From: Veillonellales bacterium
Lineage (GTDB): Bacteria > Bacillota > Negativicutes > Veillonellales > Dialisteraceae
Direction of reading: 5' to 3'
Assembly: GCA_944390485.1 (NCBI GenBank)
Contig: CALXPQ010000003.1
Location: 186,001-250,000 of the forward strand
DNA: 64,000 nt
The translations under genes and the position numbers were made by a program. Below the pieces are notes generated by a model, which was not told where the DNA came from, ran no database searches, and saw only the letters and a list, made by a program, of their open reading frames with translations. Shown here one piece after another: positions 2,069 through 12,121 of this stretch (the stretch's first letter is position 1; each line of letters begins with the position of its first letter).

Positions 2069-2118
2069 AAATATAATTATCAGACATGTTCACCATAGAT
2101 ATGACAGAGGAGGCACAT

Positions 2119-5100
2119 ATGGAACAAAGAATTTACCGGGCGGGACTGGATATCGGCATCGGGTCCGTCGGATGGGCTGTGATTTCTACGGATGCCCGCG
2201 GAGAAAACGGACGGATCGAGAGTTTTGGCACCCGCATCTTTGAGTCAGGAGAAAAAAGCGGCGGCAAGGACCGCACCAGCCAGGAACGGCGGGGATTCCG
2301 TCATATCCGCCGGACGCTGCGCCGCCGCCGCTCGCGCAAGGAGATTCTAAAAAATTATCTGAAATACATCCGCTTTTTGAAAGACAGTGAAATCCGTGCT
2401 GCCGCAGAGACGCCGGAGACGCGGATGGTCGCACTGAAGTGCCGGGCGGCAGAAGAGCAGGTCAGCCGGCAGGATCTGCTGCGCATCCTGATCCACTTCT
2501 GCAATCATCGGGGATACCGGGACTTCTATGAGCCGGAAGAACGGACACAGGCGTCCGGCGATGCAGTGCTGGAAGAAGAAGGGGCGACAAAAGAAGAACA
2601 GGCAAAACTGGATGAAGAACGGGGCCTGCTGGAAGCGGCGGACAGCTTTGACCGGAAATTCCGGGAAAGCGGTTGCCATACGGTCTCGCAGTATATCCGG
2701 GCCAATTATGTTATGTCCGATTCAGGACAATACAACTTCCGCAATCATGAGTACAAAGGAAATGACCGGCTGGTGGTGCGGCGGAAGCACTTTCAGGACG
2801 AAGCGCGCCTGATACTGGAAGAGCAGGCGGCGTACTGCCCGGAACTCACGGAAGACCATATTTCACAGATTATGGACATCATATTCCGGCAGCGTGATTT
2901 TGAGGACGGCCCGGGAGACCCGCAGGATAAAAACAGACGATACAAAGGGTTCCTAGAGACCCTCGGTATGTGCCGGTTCTATCCGGAGGAGAAGCGGGGA
3001 TTCCGGAATACGGTGCTGGGCGATCTTTATGCAGCCGTGAATGCTTTCTCGCAATACCGCTATGTCAATGAAGAAACGGGAGAAGCCGGTCTTACCAGAG
3101 AAGCGGCGCATCGGCTCATCTCGGCAGTGATGAAGGAGGGAAGCCTCACACGGAAGCAGGCGGAAAAGCTGCTGAAACCGCTGCATATGACGCTGCTCGG
3201 GCCGAAAGATGTGGACACGACGCTGACAAAATCATTCCGGTATATCCGGCTGATCAAAAAAGCGGCAGAGAAAGCAGGACTGTCCTGGGAAGCCATGATA
3301 GAAAGCGGGGACTGCTGGATAGAACGGGAGCCGATGTCATTCCTGAATCAACTGGGAGATACCCTTTCCAGCTATCAGACGCCGCGCCGCCGTGCAGAGG
3401 AACTGCGTCATATGCAGGAACTGGCGGAGACACGCCATATTCCGGTGAACGATACGTTCTGGAAAATGCTGAAAGGGGTTCGCCTGTCCGGCACAAGCGG
3501 CGTGTCCTATCATTATATGGCCGATGCCGTGGAAGCTTTTCTGGACGGTGATATTTACGGCAATTTCCAGTGGAGCCGTGAAAGCAAAGCCATTGAACAG
3601 CAGAAAACTAAAAAGACTTTCCTTCTGCCGCCGGATGTGCTGTCCCGGGACGAAGATCTGAAAGACAATCCGGTGGTGCTCCGCTCCATCAATGAGACGC
3701 GGAAAATCCTGAACGCGCTGATCCGCGTATACGGTACGCCGGACTATATCAATGTGGAAGTAGCGGACGATGTGGCCCGGAGTTATGTGGAGCGGCAGCG
3801 GCTGGACAAACTGAAAAAAGCCAACGAAAAGGAAAACGACAATATCCGTAAAAAAGTGGCGGAAATACTCCAGTGCGACTCTTCGGAAGTCAAAGGACCG
3901 CAGATTGAGCGGTACAAACTGTATTGCCAGCAGGAAGGAAAGTGTCTTTACAGCGGAGAACCTCTGGATTTGAAAATCGCGCTGACTCCCGGTAATCATC
4001 AGTATGAGGTTGATCACATCGTGCCGTATTCCCTGATTCTGGATAATACCATCCACAATAAAGCGCTGGTACTTGGTTCGGAAAATCAGAGCAAACGGCA
4101 GCAGACGCCGCTCATGTACCTCAAAGGAGAAAAACGGGACGCTTTTCTGGCCCGGGTGGAAGCGGCTTACCGCCGCAAGTCTCATCCCATCAGCCAGAGA
4201 AAATATCAGTATCTCCATCTGGAGAGCATTTACGGCGATAAGGCGGCGGAAGTGCTGAACGGATGGAAATCCCGCAACATCAACGATACCCGGTACATTA
4301 CAAAATACGTGGTGGGCCTGCTGAAACATCATCTGGCAGGAGATCCGAAAGTATACGGCATCCGCGGACATATCACGAGCCGTTTCCGCCGGGAATGGCT
4401 GAACCGGGACACCTGGGGCAGTGAAGAGAAGAACCGCGGGAACTATCTGAACCATGCGGCCGATGCGGTTATCATCGCCAATTTGACGGAAGCCGCGGCG
4501 GTGCTGGCCATGGACTATGAGAAACTGCGGCAGGTGCAGCGGCACTTCGGCGGGACGGAAAGCATCGCTTACCAGCGTATGCTGGACGGCTGCGTGCGGC
4601 AGCTTTCCGGTTATTATCACATGGATGCGGATCTGGCGCGGGCGCGTCTTCAGAATACGGCGGCGGTACCTTCCGTCGTGCCCGGCCTCCGGCAGGAAGT
4701 GGATCTGCGCTTCGGCTCGGCGGAAGGCGATGTGCGTTCTGCGGAAGAATTTCAGCATGAAGTGGAGCTGTACTACGGAGGCTGCGGCGATTTCATTCTG
4801 CCGCCTTACCAGCCCATTACTTCCATCAAGCCGGAGCGCCGCTTCCGTGGGGCCGTGGCGGACTCTAATCCCATCCGCCTTGTGAAAATCGACGGAGACT
4901 GGTGGAAAATCAGCCGGAAAGCCATCGGGAAAATCAAGAAAAGCGATCTGCCGAAGCTCTATACGACAGATGGATCGCTCCTGGAGGCGCTTCATCAGGC
5001 GCTGGACGGGCAGAGTGAAGGCGGCACGGTAGAAAAGTATCTGACAGAACAGGGGTTGCCGGAATTTCGCAATGCTGCAGGACAGGTGGTATACAAGGTT

Positions 5101-5589
5101 TCCGTAAAAGAGAAGAAAGTAAGTAACTTTTATCGAAAAGAAAGCGGAGAAGGGAATTACAGCATCCTCGGTCTGCCGAGATTCTACTGCGTGGAAATCT
5201 ACAGAGATGCGCGCGGGAGGAGCCGCATGTGGGGCATTCGCTATGTGGACGTAAAAAAACAGGATGGTCGTCTGTATCTGTTGCGCGCCCTGCCGGACGA
5301 TTATCGGAAACATGTAGGATATCTCTATCCGGGAGATTATCTGGAGGTGAGGAAGCAGGAGGAATTGCTTTTTTCCGGATTTTATCAGTCTGTTCACGTT
5401 ATTAATGATAATAGACTATATGGAAAGGCAATCAATCAGAGTACAATAGAAGATTTTCGGATTGGACCTGGGGCAGAAATTGTTAAGTATGCGGTCAATC
5501 TATTGGGGGAAAAAGAGGGCTCCATTGATGAGACAAAGGAGGGTTTTTCGTGTTTCGTACCCTTATCGTCGAAGAGGGAGAACAGCTGA
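2119..5589 (+). CDS. cas9: CRISPR-associated endonuclease Cas9 (type II-C)
   Basis: RNA-guided nuclease of 1156 residues that cuts both strands of target DNA with crRNA and tracrRNA. RuvC-I is at the N terminus (GLDIGIGSVGW, catalytic Asp11), followed by an arginine-rich bridge helix (RRTLRRRRSRK). RuvC-II has INVEVADD with Glu547. The HNH domain has YEVDHIVP with His633 and downstream Asn residues. RuvC-III has NHAADAVI with His779 and Asp782, and the C-terminal half is the PAM-interacting part. All catalytic residues are present. ATG 2119 is preferred over in-frame ATGs at 2086 and 2101 because GAGGAGG sits five bases before it. The size and the absence of csn2 or cas4 point to subtype II-C. 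GC content is visibly lower than in the flanking genes, which suggests transfer. Confidence 0.97.
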   Translation: MEQRIYRAGLDIGIGSVGWAVISTDARGENGRIESFGTRIFESGEKSGGKDRTSQERRGFRHIRRTLRRRRSRKEILKNYLKYIRFLKDSEIRAAAETPETRMVALKCRAAEEQVSRQDLLRILIHFCNHRGYRDFYEPEERTQASGDAVLEEEGATKEEQAKLDEERGLLEAADSFDRKFRESGCHTVSQYIRANYVMSDSGQYNFRNHEYKGNDRLVVRRKHFQDEARLILEEQAAYCPELTEDHISQIMDIIFRQRDFEDGPGDPQDKNRRYKGFLETLGMCRFYPEEKRGFRNTVLGDLYAAVNAFSQYRYVNEETGEAGLTREAAHRLISAVMKEGSLTRKQAEKLLKPLHMTLLGPKDVDTTLTKSFRYIRLIKKAAEKAGLSWEAMIESGDCWIEREPMSFLNQLGDTLSSYQTPRRRAEELRHMQELAETRHIPVNDTFWKMLKGVRLSGTSGVSYHYMADAVEAFLDGDIYGNFQWSRESKAIEQQKTKKTFLLPPDVLSRDEDLKDNPVVLRSINETRKILNALIRVYGTPDYINVEVADDVARSYVERQRLDKLKKANEKENDNIRKKVAEILQCDSSEVKGPQIERYKLYCQQEGKCLYSGEPLDLKIALTPGNHQYEVDHIVPYSLILDNTIHNKALVLGSENQSKRQQTPLMYLKGEKRDAFLARVEAAYRRKSHPISQRKYQYLHLESIYGDKAAEVLNGWKSRNINDTRYITKYVVGLLKHHLAGDPKVYGIRGHITSRFRREWLNRDTWGSEEKNRGNYLNHAADAVIIANLTEAAAVLAMDYEKLRQVQRHFGGTESIAYQRMLDGCVRQLSGYYHMDADLARARLQNTAAVPSVVPGLRQEVDLRFGSAEGDVRSAEEFQHEVELYYGGCGDFILPPYQPITSIKPERRFRGAVADSNPIRLVKIDGDWWKISRKAIGKIKKSDLPKLYTTDGSLLEALHQALDGQSEGGTVEKYLTEQGLPEFRNAAGQVVYKVSVKEKKVSNFYRKESGEGNYSILGLPRFYCVEIYRDARGRSRMWGIRYVDVKKQDGRLYLLRALPDDYRKHVGYLYPGDYLEVRKQEELLFSGFYQSVHVINDNRLYGKAINQSTIEDFRIGPGAEIVKYAVNLLGEKEGSIDETKEGFSCFVPLSSKRENS

Positions 5590-6473
5590 GCGTTGCGCAC
5601 CATGTGCTCCGTATCACCCGGCGGGGGAAAACGGTGCCTGTGCCCATCGACGATCTGTATTGCATCGTGTTGGATAATCAGCAGACCGTCGTTACAGCCG
5701 CGGCAATCACCGAGCTGACCCGGGCAGGGGCGCATATTGTGGTGTGCGATGAGAAGCACCTGCCCTCATCCGTGATGTATCCGGAGCTGGTGCATTACCG
5801 GCCTTACACGGTGGCCGTCCGGCAGATCGCCCTCACGCAGGGGCAGAAAGATGCGCTCTGGGACCGTGTCGTCCGGGCGAAGCTGATGAGTCAGGCCGCC
5901 GCGTTGGACTGCTGCTGTCCCGGCAGCGCCGTCGCGGACCGCATCCGGGAACTGGCGGAGGAAGTGACCGAAGGGGATCGCGGAAACCGGGAAGGCATCG
6001 GCGCGAAGCTGTACTTCCGCAGCCTGTTCGGCTCCCGCTTCCTCCGCATGGAAGACGACGGGGTGAATCATGCCCTGAACTACGGCTATGCCATCCTGCG
6101 GTCGGCCATGGTAAAGACGCTGTATCTCTTTGGCTATTATCCGCCGCTGGGCATCCATCACATCGGGCCCACCAATCCGTTTAATCTGGGAGACGATTTG
6201 ATGGAGCCCTTCCGCCCCATCGTGGATATGTGGGCGGACCTCTATCATGGCGAACTGGAGGAAGACCTGACCGCGGGTCAGCGGCGGCAGCTTGTAGGAT
6301 TGGTCAATCTGGAAATGGACTATGAAGGGGCACACATGAAAGTGCGGAACGTCATGGCCCGGTATGTGAGAAGCTTCACCGCGGCGGTAGAAAAGGGGGA
6401 TGCGTCGCTGTTTATCCCGCCGGTGCTGACTTCATGGATCTATAAGGAAATGATACGGGGATGTCCAGACTGA
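5550..6473 (+). CDS. cas1: CRISPR-associated integrase Cas1
   Basis: Cas1 is the metal-dependent integrase that, with Cas2, inserts new spacers at the leader end of the array. The 307-residue protein has the type II Cas1 pattern: an N-terminal beta domain (LIVEEGEQLSV...LRITRRGK), ITELTRAGAHIVVCDEKHLPS, and in the helical domain NYGYAILRSAM, IHHIGPTNPFNLGDDLMEPFRP, which holds the conserved His and Asp/Glu metal ligands. It starts with GTG 5550 after AAAGGAGGG and overlaps the end of cas9 by 40 bases, so the two are translationally coupled. Confidence 0.95.
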   Translation: MFRTLIVEEGEQLSVAHHVLRITRRGKTVPVPIDDLYCIVLDNQQTVVTAAAITELTRAGAHIVVCDEKHLPSSVMYPELVHYRPYTVAVRQIALTQGQKDALWDRVVRAKLMSQAAALDCCCPGSAVADRIRELAEEVTEGDRGNREGIGAKLYFRSLFGSRFLRMEDDGVNHALNYGYAILRSAMVKTLYLFGYYPPLGIHHIGPTNPFNLGDDLMEPFRPIVDMWADLYHGELEEDLTAGQRRQLVGLVNLEMDYEGAHMKVRNVMARYVRSFTAAVEKGDASLFIPPVLTSWIYKEMIRGCPD

Positions 6474-6781
6474 TGCGGCTCATGGTATTTTTTGATCTGC
6501 CCACGACGACGGTGCACGACAAGAAGAACTATACGGCATTCCGGAAGTATCTTCTCGGCGATGGGTACGACATGCTGCAATATTCGGTGTACTGCCGCAT
6601 CGCACGGAATCGGGACGATGCGGCGAAGTACATCGCCCGGCTGAAAGGACGGCTCCCGCCGGAAGGACAGGTGCGCGCTCTGCTCGTCACGGAAAAGCAG
6701 TATGCGCAGATGATGATCCTGCTGGGAAAGCCCACCGCCATGGAGGAACATCTGAAGGACCGGGAGCTCATTGTGCTGTAA
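6461..6781 (+). CDS. cas2: CRISPR-associated protein Cas2
   Basis: Cas2 forms the central dimer of the Cas1-Cas2 spacer-acquisition complex. The 106-residue protein has the ferredoxin-like start MRLMVFFDLPTTT with the conserved Asp, then FRKYLLGDGYDMLQYSVYCR and a C-terminal strand pattern typical of type II Cas2. It overlaps cas1 by 13 bases. Its last bases also carry the -35 box of the array promoter, so the array begins only 27 bases after its stop codon. No csn2 or cas4 gene lies between cas2 and the array. Confidence 0.95.
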   Translation: MSRLMRLMVFFDLPTTTVHDKKNYTAFRKYLLGDGYDMLQYSVYCRIARNRDDAAKYIARLKGRLPPEGQVRALLVTEKQYAQMMILLGKPTAMEEHLKDRELIVL

Positions 6782-6799
6782 GGGCAGCCCTGTTATAAT
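6771..6799 (+). promoter_or_regulatory. CRISPR array promoter in the cas2 3' end
   Basis: TTGTGC (6771-6776), a 17-base spacer and a perfect TATAAT (6794-6799) preceded by TGT (extended -10). Transcription would start at or just before the first repeat at 6809. Confidence 0.72.
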
Positions 6800-6808
6800 G
6801 AATTTAAG

Positions 6809-7702
6809 GTTTTAGCAATCTGTTGGATATAGGTAAACTGATACTAACGACCAGAAGGCTCCGTATCCGGCAGGGTTTTAGCAATCTGTTGGATATAGGT
6901 AAACTGATACGGAGCCAACGGAGATTTATTCAGAATCTCCGTTTTAGCAATCTGTTGGATATAGGTAAACTGATACCGGACGTTTTCGACACGATTTACA
7001 AAGCAGAGTTTTAGCAATCTGTTGGATATAGGTAAACTGATACTCGACGTATAGCCAAGTCCGACCACCACGGTTTTAGCAATCTGTTGGATATAGGTAA
7101 ACTGATACTCAGAAAAAGAGCTTACCTCAAAGCGAGATGTTTTAGCAATCTGTTGGATATAGGTAAACTGATACATCAAAGTGTATCGGTAATAATCCTG
7201 CATTGTTTTAGCAATCTGTTGGATATAGGTAAACTGATACTGGCTGTGGGTCGTCCTTTCTCCTCATGTTGTTTTAGCAATCTGTTGGATATAGGTAAAC
7301 TGATACGAAGGCTCCCGCGATGTCTTGCAGCGCGTTGTTTTAGCAATCTGTTGGATATAGGTAAACTGATACCCCAGATTCTGCATATTCGCCCGTTCCG
7401 GCGTTTTAGCAATCTGTTGGATATAGGTAAACTGATACCGAGACTTGATTGACAAGATTGAAGACGATGTTTTAGCAATCTGTTGGATATAGGTAAACTG
7501 ATACAAAACGTCGTCGACGTAAGACGGGAGCTGGGTTTTAGCAATCTGTTGGATATAGGTAAACTGATACTGAATAGATACTTCATCCATCACCTGTCTC
7601 GTTTTAGCAATCTGTTGGATATAGGTAAACTGACATCGACCGGCCCGAAAGGTGACAAAGGAGATGGTTTTAGCAATCTGTTGGATATAGGTAAACTGAC
7701 AT
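6809..7702 (+). CRISPR. CRISPR array, 14 repeats of 36 bp and 13 spacers
   Basis: The 36-base repeat begins GTTTTAGCAATCTG and ends GGTAAACTGATAC. It occurs 14 times at a 65-67-base period, the first at 6809-6844 and the last at 7667-7702. Spacers are 30 bases except spacer 3 (31) and spacer 4 (29). Twelve repeats are identical; repeats 13 and 14 end TGACAT instead of TGATAC. The degenerate end is distal to the promoter, so the leader is on the left and new spacers enter next to cas2. The orientation (spacer followed by GUUUUAG) agrees with the tracrRNA anti-repeat. The protein-like repeats FSNLLDIGKL seen in translation are only the repeat read in frame. Confidence 0.99.
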
Positions 7703-7867: not shown

Positions 7868-7944
<77 letters not shown>

Positions 7945-7951
7945 GAATGGT

Positions 7952-8027
7952 TGGTCGGGGCAGCCGGACTCGAACTGGCGACCCCCTGCTCCCAAAGCAG
8001 GTGCGCTACCAACTGCGCTATGCCCCG
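7952..8027 (-). tRNA. tRNA-Pro (anticodon TGG)
   Basis: A complete cloverleaf on the minus strand: acceptor CGGGGCA/TGCCCCG, anticodon stem CCTGC/GCAGG with loop TTTGGGA (anticodon TGG), T loop GTTCGAGTC and an encoded CCA. It is the first gene of a two-tRNA unit with its own promoter. Confidence 0.95.
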
Positions 8028-9637: not shown

Positions 9638-9667
9638 TTGACATCCGGCGGGGCCTCCTCCTATAAT
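9638..9667 (+). promoter_or_regulatory. Consensus promoter of the cysS leader transcript
   Basis: Perfect TTGACA (9638-9643) and TATAAT (9662-9667) separated by 18 bases. The predicted start near 9674 gives a leader of about 540 bases before cysS. Confidence 0.9.
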
Positions 9668-9675
9668 GAGTAGAA

Positions 9676-9886
9676 GCATCACGCAGGTCTGTGGTTGAAA
9701 GTCGATGCCAGCCGCAGGCGAAACGATCCACGTAAGGGCGCCGAAAGGGCGTCTGAGCACGGTGCGGTTTAGAAGTAAGTCCTGCCGGGCAGACCGAGAG
9801 GGCGAGTAGTGAGAGGCAGACCACCGGGTAGCGAAAACTCCAGCAGGCGGGTGTGGGGGCGAAAACCAGGTCAGCTGTGTGATGTG
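9676..9886 (+). ncRNA. Unassigned structured RNA domain (~210 nt) upstream of the Cys T-box
   Basis: The segment is closed by an 11-base helix, GCATCACGCAG (9676-9686) with CTGTGTGATGT (9876-9886), and begins at the expected start of a consensus promoter. Inside are several GAAA-type loops (GCGCC-GAAA-GG..., AGCGAAAAC, GGCGAAAACC) and short helices, for example CACC/GGTG around 9822-9852. There is no start codon with a ribosome-binding site that gives a sensible protein, and no terminator before the T-box, so it is probably the 5' domain of the same transcript. It does not show the conserved cores of RNase P RNA, tmRNA, 6S RNA or SRP RNA. I do not recognise the family. Confidence 0.6.
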
Positions 9887-9902
9887 AAAGAAGATACAAC
9901 AA

Positions 9903-10128
9903 TGCGAGGAGCAAAAGAAGTATTCCCGAGCGTTTCTCTTCAGAGAGGGCGGACCGCCGGCTGCAAGCCTGCCTGTGAAAACCGGGAAGAAATGCCTTTG
10001 TGAGCAGAAGGGGCGAAATGGGAAGAGTAGCCTTTTCCGTTTGTTTGCGATAAAAACAGAAGGAAGCGGCTTTCGGCTGCTTGCAGAGTGGAATAACGGA
10101 CCACCGTCTCTGTGAGGCGGTGGTTTTT
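9903..10128 (+). promoter_or_regulatory. T-box riboswitch for cysteine (controls cysS)
   Basis: This leader senses uncharged tRNA-Cys. Stem I features in order: AGTA (9919-9922), the distal loop AGAGAG (9942-9947), and the specifier region GAAATGCCTTTGTGAGC with codon TGC (9993-9995). The antiterminator pairs GCAGAG (10083-10088) with CTCTGT (10108-10113) and exposes the TGGA bulge (10089-10092) that binds the tRNA acceptor end. The competing terminator is an 11-base stem, ACCACCGTCTC/GAGGCGGTGGT (10100-10124), with a T run. The specifier and the downstream cysS agree. Confidence 0.9.
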
Positions 10129-10215
10129 CCTTTTCCTGCGGCGGGAAGGCGCTTTATATAAAAGAGGCATATTTCCGGGCGGTGCGGCGCATCCCCGGCT
10201 GTTAAGGAGGAAACC

Positions 10216-11667
10216 ATGGAAGACATCAGAGTGTACAACACCATGACGCGGGAGAAATCTCTCTTCGTGCCGGTCACGCCGGGCGAGGTGAAGATCTACG
10301 TGTGCGGCGTCACGCCGTACAATCACCCGCACATCGGCAATGCGCGCCCCGCGGTGACGTGGGACGTGATCCGCCGGTATCTGCAGTACATCGGCTACAA
10401 GGTGACGCTCATCCAGAACTTCACCGACGTGGACGACAAGATCATCAACAAGGCGAATGCGGAAGGCTCGTCGTGGAAGGTCATCTCCGACCGCTACATC
10501 GACGCGTATTTCCAGGTGACGGACGCGCTCCACGTGCGCCGTGCGGACAAATATCCCCGCGTGTCGGAGCATATGGACGACATCATCTCCATGGTGCAGA
10601 CGCTCATCGAGAAGGGACACGCCTACGTGCTGGATCACGACGTGTACTACGACATCTCCACCTTTGCGGATTACGGGAAGCTCTCCGGCCGGAACGTGGA
10701 GGACATGCTCGCCGGCGCCCGCGTGGAAGTGAACGAAGGCAAGCGCAATCCCGGCGACTTCGCCGTGTGGAAAGGCGCGAAGCCCGGCGAACCGGCCTGG
10801 GACAGCCCGTGGGGCCCCGGCCGTCCGGGCTGGCACATCGAGTGCTCCGCCATGTCCATCCACTACCTGGGCAAGACCTTCGATTTCCACGGCGGCGGCA
10901 GCGACCTGATCTTCCCGCATCATGAGAACGAGATCGCCCAGTCCGAGGGCTGCACCGGCTGCACCTTCGTCCACTACTGGCTGCACAACGGCTTCATCAC
11001 CATCAATCAGGAGAAGATGAGCAAGTCGCTCAACAATTTCTTCCTCGTGAAGGACGTGCTGGAGAAATACTCCGGCGACGCGCTGCGCTTCTTCCTGCTG
11101 TCCACCCATTACCGGAGCCCGCTCGATTTCAGCGACGACCGGCTGGAAGAGGCGGAGACGAACATGGCGCGCCTCACCGATGTGATCGGCCGCATCCGCG
11201 AGCTGGCGGAGCAGAAGGGCAGCGACGTCTCCGACGCGTCGAAGGCGCTCCGCGAAGCGGCGGAGACCGCCATGCGCGATTTCCACGCCGCCATGGACGA
11301 CGACTTCAATACGGGCCTCGCCTCGAGCACGGTGTTCGACCTGGCGAAAGCCATCAATATCTATTACACCGCCGTGCAGAGCGGGGAAGCGGGCATCGAC
11401 GCGGACGCGGTGGCACTCGCCATGAAGAACCTGAAAGAGATCATGGGCGTGCTGGGCATCCTCGAGAGCGCGTGGAACCGCCGGCCCGACGCGGCGGACG
11501 ACAAGGACTTCCGGCAGCTCATGCAGGTCATCCTCGATATCCGGCAGGAAGCCAGAGCGGAGAAGCAGTACGCCATCGCTGACAGAATCCGCGACCGGCT
11601 GGCCGCCATGGATATCGTCATCGAAGACACGCCGACCGGCGCGCGGTGGAAGAAACGTGGAGTTTAA
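10216..11667 (+). CDS. cysS: Cysteine-tRNA ligase
   Basis: Class I aminoacyl-tRNA synthetase of 483 residues that charges tRNA-Cys. The signature motifs are PYNHPHIGNARP (HIGN), the zinc and cysteine-binding residues in YVCGVTPY, GWHIECSAM and HHENEIAQSE, and KMSKS (EKMSKSLNN). The C-terminal anticodon-binding helical domain is complete. ATG 10216 follows AAGGAGG. It is controlled by the T-box at 9903-10128 and overlaps mrnC by 11 bases, as in many Firmicutes. Confidence 0.97.
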   Translation: MEDIRVYNTMTREKSLFVPVTPGEVKIYVCGVTPYNHPHIGNARPAVTWDVIRRYLQYIGYKVTLIQNFTDVDDKIINKANAEGSSWKVISDRYIDAYFQVTDALHVRRADKYPRVSEHMDDIISMVQTLIEKGHAYVLDHDVYYDISTFADYGKLSGRNVEDMLAGARVEVNEGKRNPGDFAVWKGAKPGEPAWDSPWGPGRPGWHIECSAMSIHYLGKTFDFHGGGSDLIFPHHENEIAQSEGCTGCTFVHYWLHNGFITINQEKMSKSLNNFFLVKDVLEKYSGDALRFFLLSTHYRSPLDFSDDRLEEAETNMARLTDVIGRIRELAEQKGSDVSDASKALREAAETAMRDFHAAMDDDFNTGLASSTVFDLAKAINIYYTAVQSGEAGIDADAVALAMKNLKEIMGVLGILESAWNRRPDAADDKDFRQLMQVILDIRQEARAEKQYAIADRIRDRLAAMDIVIEDTPTGARWKKRGV

Positions 11668-12121
11668 GCGGGTCCAGTTCCTGAAAAAGCAGATGGCGCA
11701 GAAGATGGGGCGCACCGGGCCCGAGCTCTCCGAGCAGGACGTCTTCTCCATGGACGCGCTCACCCTGGCGTACATGGGCGACGTGTGCTGGTCCTTCTTC
11801 ATCCGGGAGAAGCTCATCGCGACGGGCATCTACAACGTACAGATCCTGAGCACGCTTGCCGCGGAGATGGTCTCCGCGAAGTGGCAGAGCCGCATCCTCT
11901 TCGAGCTGCGGGAGCTGCTGGACGACCGGGAGCTGAAAGTGTGCCGCCGCGGGCGGAACACGCACTCCTCCGTGCCGAAGAGCGCCACCGTGGAGGAATA
12001 CCGCGAGGCGACCGCCTTCGAGAGCCTCCTGGGGTACCTCTATCTGGCCGGCCGGGAAGAGCGGCTGCAGTTCCTCATGAGCCGGGCGCTGCGGTACCTG
12101 GCCGAAGAATTCAAAGCATGA
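11657..12121 (+). CDS. mrnC: Mini-ribonuclease III
   Basis: A 154-residue RNase III catalytic domain without the dsRNA-binding domain; in Bacillus it matures 23S rRNA. The motifs are DALTLAYMGDVCW with the catalytic Asp and AFESLLGYLYL with the metal-binding Glu, separated by the usual helical region (KSATVEEYREATAFE). It overlaps the end of cysS, and the cysS-mrnC pair is a conserved Firmicute arrangement. A 12-base hairpin follows immediately. Confidence 0.93.
   Translation: MEFKRVQFLKKQMAQKMGRTGPELSEQDVFSMDALTLAYMGDVCWSFFIREKLIATGIYNVQILSTLAAEMVSAKWQSRILFELRELLDDRELKVCRRGRNTHSSVPKSATVEEYREATAFESLLGYLYLAGREERLQFLMSRALRYLAEEFKA

Follow-up and report, generated by a model that had tools for sequence, protein, structure and literature searches.

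A raiA (ModT) RNA directly upstream of a cysteine T-box in an apparently composite cysS leader

The leader of cysS in a Veillonellales genome (GCA_944390485.1) raises the question of what the structured RNA of about 210 nt lying directly upstream of the Cys T-box is, and whether both RNAs are made from one promoter as parts of a single leader. An initial annotation of the window (64,000 nucleotides of contig CALXPQ010000003.1, positions 186,001 to 250,000), made from the letters and their open reading frames, had left this domain unassigned and had proposed a composite leader. The features of the locus are collected in Table 1, in window coordinates.

Table 1. Features of the raiA, T-box and cysS locus
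Feature	Position	Strand	Basis or remark
sigma-70 promoter TTGACA-18-TATAAT	9638..9667	+	12/12 match; sole promoter-like site for raiA, T-box and cysS
raiA (ModT) noncoding RNA	9678..9883	+	RF03072 match, covariation; P1 extends to 9676-9686 paired with 9875-9885
Linker, 14 nt, without terminator or promoter	9884..9897	+	Consensus scans; 10-40 nt across family f1
Cys T-box leader	9898..10114	+	RF00230, 85.4 bits, E 4.4e-19
Specifier codon UGC (Cys)	9993..9995	+	Invariant across 15 loci; pairs with tRNA-Cys GCA anticodon
T-box bulge UGGA	10089..10092	+	Complementary to UCCA end of tRNA-Cys
T-box intrinsic terminator	10098..10126	+	13-pair stem plus T run; predicted 3' end of short raiA-T-box transcript
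cysS, cysteinyl-tRNA synthetase	10216..11667	+	Pfam PF01406, PF09190, PF23493
RNase III domain protein, Mini-III-like	11657..12121	+	PF00636; overlaps cysS end

Identity of the two RNAs

When the whole window was searched with Rfam 15, the domain matched the raiA motif RNA (RF03072 / ModT) at full length, over model positions 1-209 of 209, with 187.1 bits (E 8.9e-48) against a gathering score of 101.3. It is an ordinary raiA/ModT RNA, a known class: the Rfam scan that the initial annotation had proposed as a check thus returned the strong hit that it had named as counting against an unassigned domain, and the raiA motif, offered there as one possibility, proved to be the correct one. The score over the full model rules out a new class of structured RNA with near certainty, and nothing spoke for such a class after the search. 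The 11-base helix described as closing the domain was confirmed as P1 (nine of its pairs lie within the Rfam alignment) and it covaries, with 10/12 pairs, as counted on 32 relatives, varying on both sides. Across the 32 raiA sequences of the order, changes on both sides were found in 22 of the 55 pairs of the consensus helices and in 168 alignment cells versus 62 in shuffles, and the covariation score was 0.269 versus 0.137 for shuffled and at most 0.157 for slid controls; apical helix 5 was just 52% paired in the MAFFT alignment. The consensus fold was not reproduced by the single-sequence minimum-free-energy fold of 9674-10130, as is expected for an RNA with pseudoknots, and this fold adds no independent support. 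The raiA RNA is single-copy in the source genome, occurs once per genome in 59 of 60 relatives and, in the class as a whole, gave a match in 181 of the 300 genomes searched. Its usual neighbour is hpf, the gene of the raiA protein, and the single hpf homologue of the source genome lies on another contig (G000:C1:306395-306664, L152).

The Cys T-box reported to follow this domain was borne out as well. Its RF00230 match (85.4 bits, E 4.4e-19) is slightly below the Rfam gathering score of 93, which is exceeded by the orthologous leaders L004 (93.3 bits) and L055 (93.2 bits) of the same family, and a T-box is present at all 15 homologous loci of this family and its sister family. UGGA was likewise found in all 15, with an alignment gap splitting it in two rows, and the source genome encodes a tRNA-Cys with anticodon GCA whose gene ends in TCCA (UCCA in RNA). 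With the UGC specifier, the UGGA bulge, the matching anticodon and 3' end of this tRNA, a terminator and cysS downstream, the T-box is Cys-specific. About 20 further T-box matches were observed elsewhere in the source genome.

Arrangement at the locus and across related families

All promoter and terminator calls throughout were made by consensus scans. The promoter annotated as perfect matches at 12/12 positions (TTGACA at 9638-9643, an 18 nt spacer and TATAAT at 9662-9667), and the scan found no intrinsic terminator between the raiA domain and the T-box, in agreement with the initial annotation. Downstream, cysS is single-copy, with one match in the source genome, and the Mini-III-like gene is likely part of the cysS operon; its RNase III domain product is a candidate processing enzyme. 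The upstream part of the window carries a type II CRISPR-Cas system at 2086-7600, comprising a Cas9-like protein (HNH and RuvC domains; PF13395, PF18541), Cas1 and Cas2, followed by a repeat array that appears as repeated DIGKLI peptides in the list of open reading frames, and a tRNA-Arg (TCT) and tRNA-Pro (TGG) pair lies on the minus strand at 7868-8027, between this array and the raiA locus.

We compared the source genome's own family (f1; 11 genomes with a raiA match, source included), its sister family (f2; 4 genomes) and two other families of the order (f3 and f4); a twelfth f1 member, G011, is 75% complete and has no match to raiA or cysS. The order raiA, linker, T-box, cysS was found in all 11 f1 genomes, and the promoter upstream of raiA scored 10-12/12 in each of them. 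A second f1 promoter before the T-box was not found by the scan, the best sites reaching 6-8/12 and in most genomes not exceeding shuffles. Some f1 loci (L002, L003 and L055) have 9/12 promoter-like matches inside the 3' half of raiA or reaching into the linker. By these scans, the f1 locus appears to be a composite raiA-T-box unit in 11 of 11 genomes, with one promoter and without a recognisable terminator or inner promoter, which supports the proposed composite cysS leader and its conservation across the family. In one f1 genus, an RNase P RNA gene was observed about 100 nt upstream of raiA, placing RNase P RNA, raiA, T-box and cysS in a row (RNase P RNA at 1055-1398 with raiA at 1501-1708 in L014, and at 2291-2635 with raiA at 2001-2207 in L054).

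The sister family has the order raiA, T-box, a cysE-like gene (assigned by hexapeptide repeats and sequence character) and cysS, and a second promoter before the T-box that scored 10-11/12, a level reached by 0-6 of 200 shuffles. This f2 promoter lends some credit to the reading that raiA and the T-box are independent neighbours in f1 too, with a non-consensus promoter inside raiA driving the T-box and cysS; given an f1 linker of merely 10-40 nt and the lack of sites above shuffles in most f1 genomes, we regard this as very unlikely. A dedicated raiA terminator was absent from all 15 f1 and f2 loci, where no hairpin was better than -5.4 kcal/mol, and 22 of 23 f3 and f4 loci have one (hairpin energies between -9 and -29 kcal/mol, then T's). 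No T-box was found near raiA at 19 f3 and f4 loci or at 19 loci elsewhere in the class. In f3 and f4, cysS lies apart from raiA and has its own T-box at 10 of 11 loci, nine of these ten T-boxes having their own promoter (10-12/12).

The CysS tree groups f1 with f2 (support 98/94). An in-frame TGA flagged in the f3 CysS was merely the terminal stop, the aligned protein having no internal stop. Taken together, the fused f1 loci, the f2 loci with an inner promoter, the separate f3 and f4 loci and the joining of f1 and f2 in the tree show a clade-specific change from separate to fused genes, and what was once a stand-alone noncoding RNA gene now seems to form the 5' part of a T-box leader. In the simplest history, raiA would have been joined to the T-box-cysS unit a single time, before f1 and f2 split, and its terminator lost in the process; the inner promoter would later have disappeared from f1.

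Proposed mechanism and its alternatives

We consider it probable that a raiA gene has been fused ahead of the Cys T-box/cysS operon under one promoter, with raiA acting in trans and the T-box gating cysS. One strong promoter would drive raiA, the T-box and cysS as a single transcript starting at about 9674, and most transcripts would end at the T-box terminator, giving an RNA of roughly 455 nt whose raiA portion, untrimmed or trimmed, may act in trans as in Clostridia. With tRNA-Cys uncharged, the T-box antiterminator would form and allow read-through into cysS and on into the RNase III-domain gene that overlaps it. Rfam labels the raiA RNA a cis-regulatory riboswitch, but in Clostridia raiA/ModT acts in trans, is abundant and stable, and has an effect on entry into stationary phase (PMC11706538). 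In C. difficile a long ModT isoform arises when transcription continues to a terminator further downstream (PMC11706538), which provides a precedent for a long raiA-T-box transcript.

The domain could also be a second cis sensor, an extra sensor having been among the suggestions of the initial annotation: its folding state would alter transcription through the T-box, so that cysS would respond to growth phase and cysteine supply together. The tandem of raiA and T-box with short linkers, kept throughout f1, is consistent with this, as is the shift of raiA/ModT conformation with growth phase seen by in vivo probing (PMC11706538). However, no expression platform belonging to the domain lies between it and the T-box, T-box stem I begins after P1 ends with no shared sequence, raiA elsewhere in the order is solitary with its own terminator, and deletion was complemented in trans in two Clostridia (PMC11706538). 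We therefore find a second cis sensor unlikely; a cis role for raiA is possible, but nothing in the sequence demands one. Within the fused-gene reading, the fusion may itself be functional and couple raiA supply to cysteine sensing, either through the T-box state setting the raiA isoform or through the raiA fold affecting read-through, a suggestion we put forward tentatively. If true, such coupling would make this a natural leader in which a housekeeping-like RNA that acts in trans is paired with a sensor of tRNA.

Significance and comparison with known systems

Both RNA classes are known, and it is their arrangement that is new; no report of raiA with a T-box and cysS was found in the open-access literature. 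The gene neighbours of raiA/ModT have been judged uninformative (PMC11706538), and a family in which raiA is locked to a Cys T-box and a single-copy cysS in one unit offers a tractable system for the role of this RNA. The arrangement predicts a natural long raiA isoform whose 3' end is set by a regulated terminator, and it would tie raiA output to aminoacyl-tRNA supply; the families also suggest how a stand-alone noncoding RNA can, step by step, turn into part of a leader.

The domain resembles other raiA motif RNAs (RF03072), for which a cryo-EM structure at 3.0 Å has been published (PMC11751092), in its full-length match, conserved core, covarying P1 and other helices, strong sigma-70 promoter at the 5' end and single copy, but differs in having no intrinsic terminator of its own, no adjacent raiA (hpf) gene and a T-box directly downstream. 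The T-box is like other Cys T-box leaders (RF00230) in its UGC specifier, UGGA bulge, antiterminator/terminator pair and position upstream of cysS; unlike them, the f1 T-box has no promoter of its own, and transcription would arrive through the raiA RNA. Two structured RNAs in a single leader recall the tandem riboswitches of a survey (PMC12452182) whose consulted passages do not name a raiA-T-box pair. Here only the T-box has a recognisable expression platform; since the reported action of raiA is in trans, the pair would be a noncoding RNA with a riboswitch and not two cis sensors. As with the long ModT isoform of C. difficile (PMC11706538), the transcript is predicted to run past raiA to a downstream terminator, but in this case that terminator is the regulated one of the T-box.
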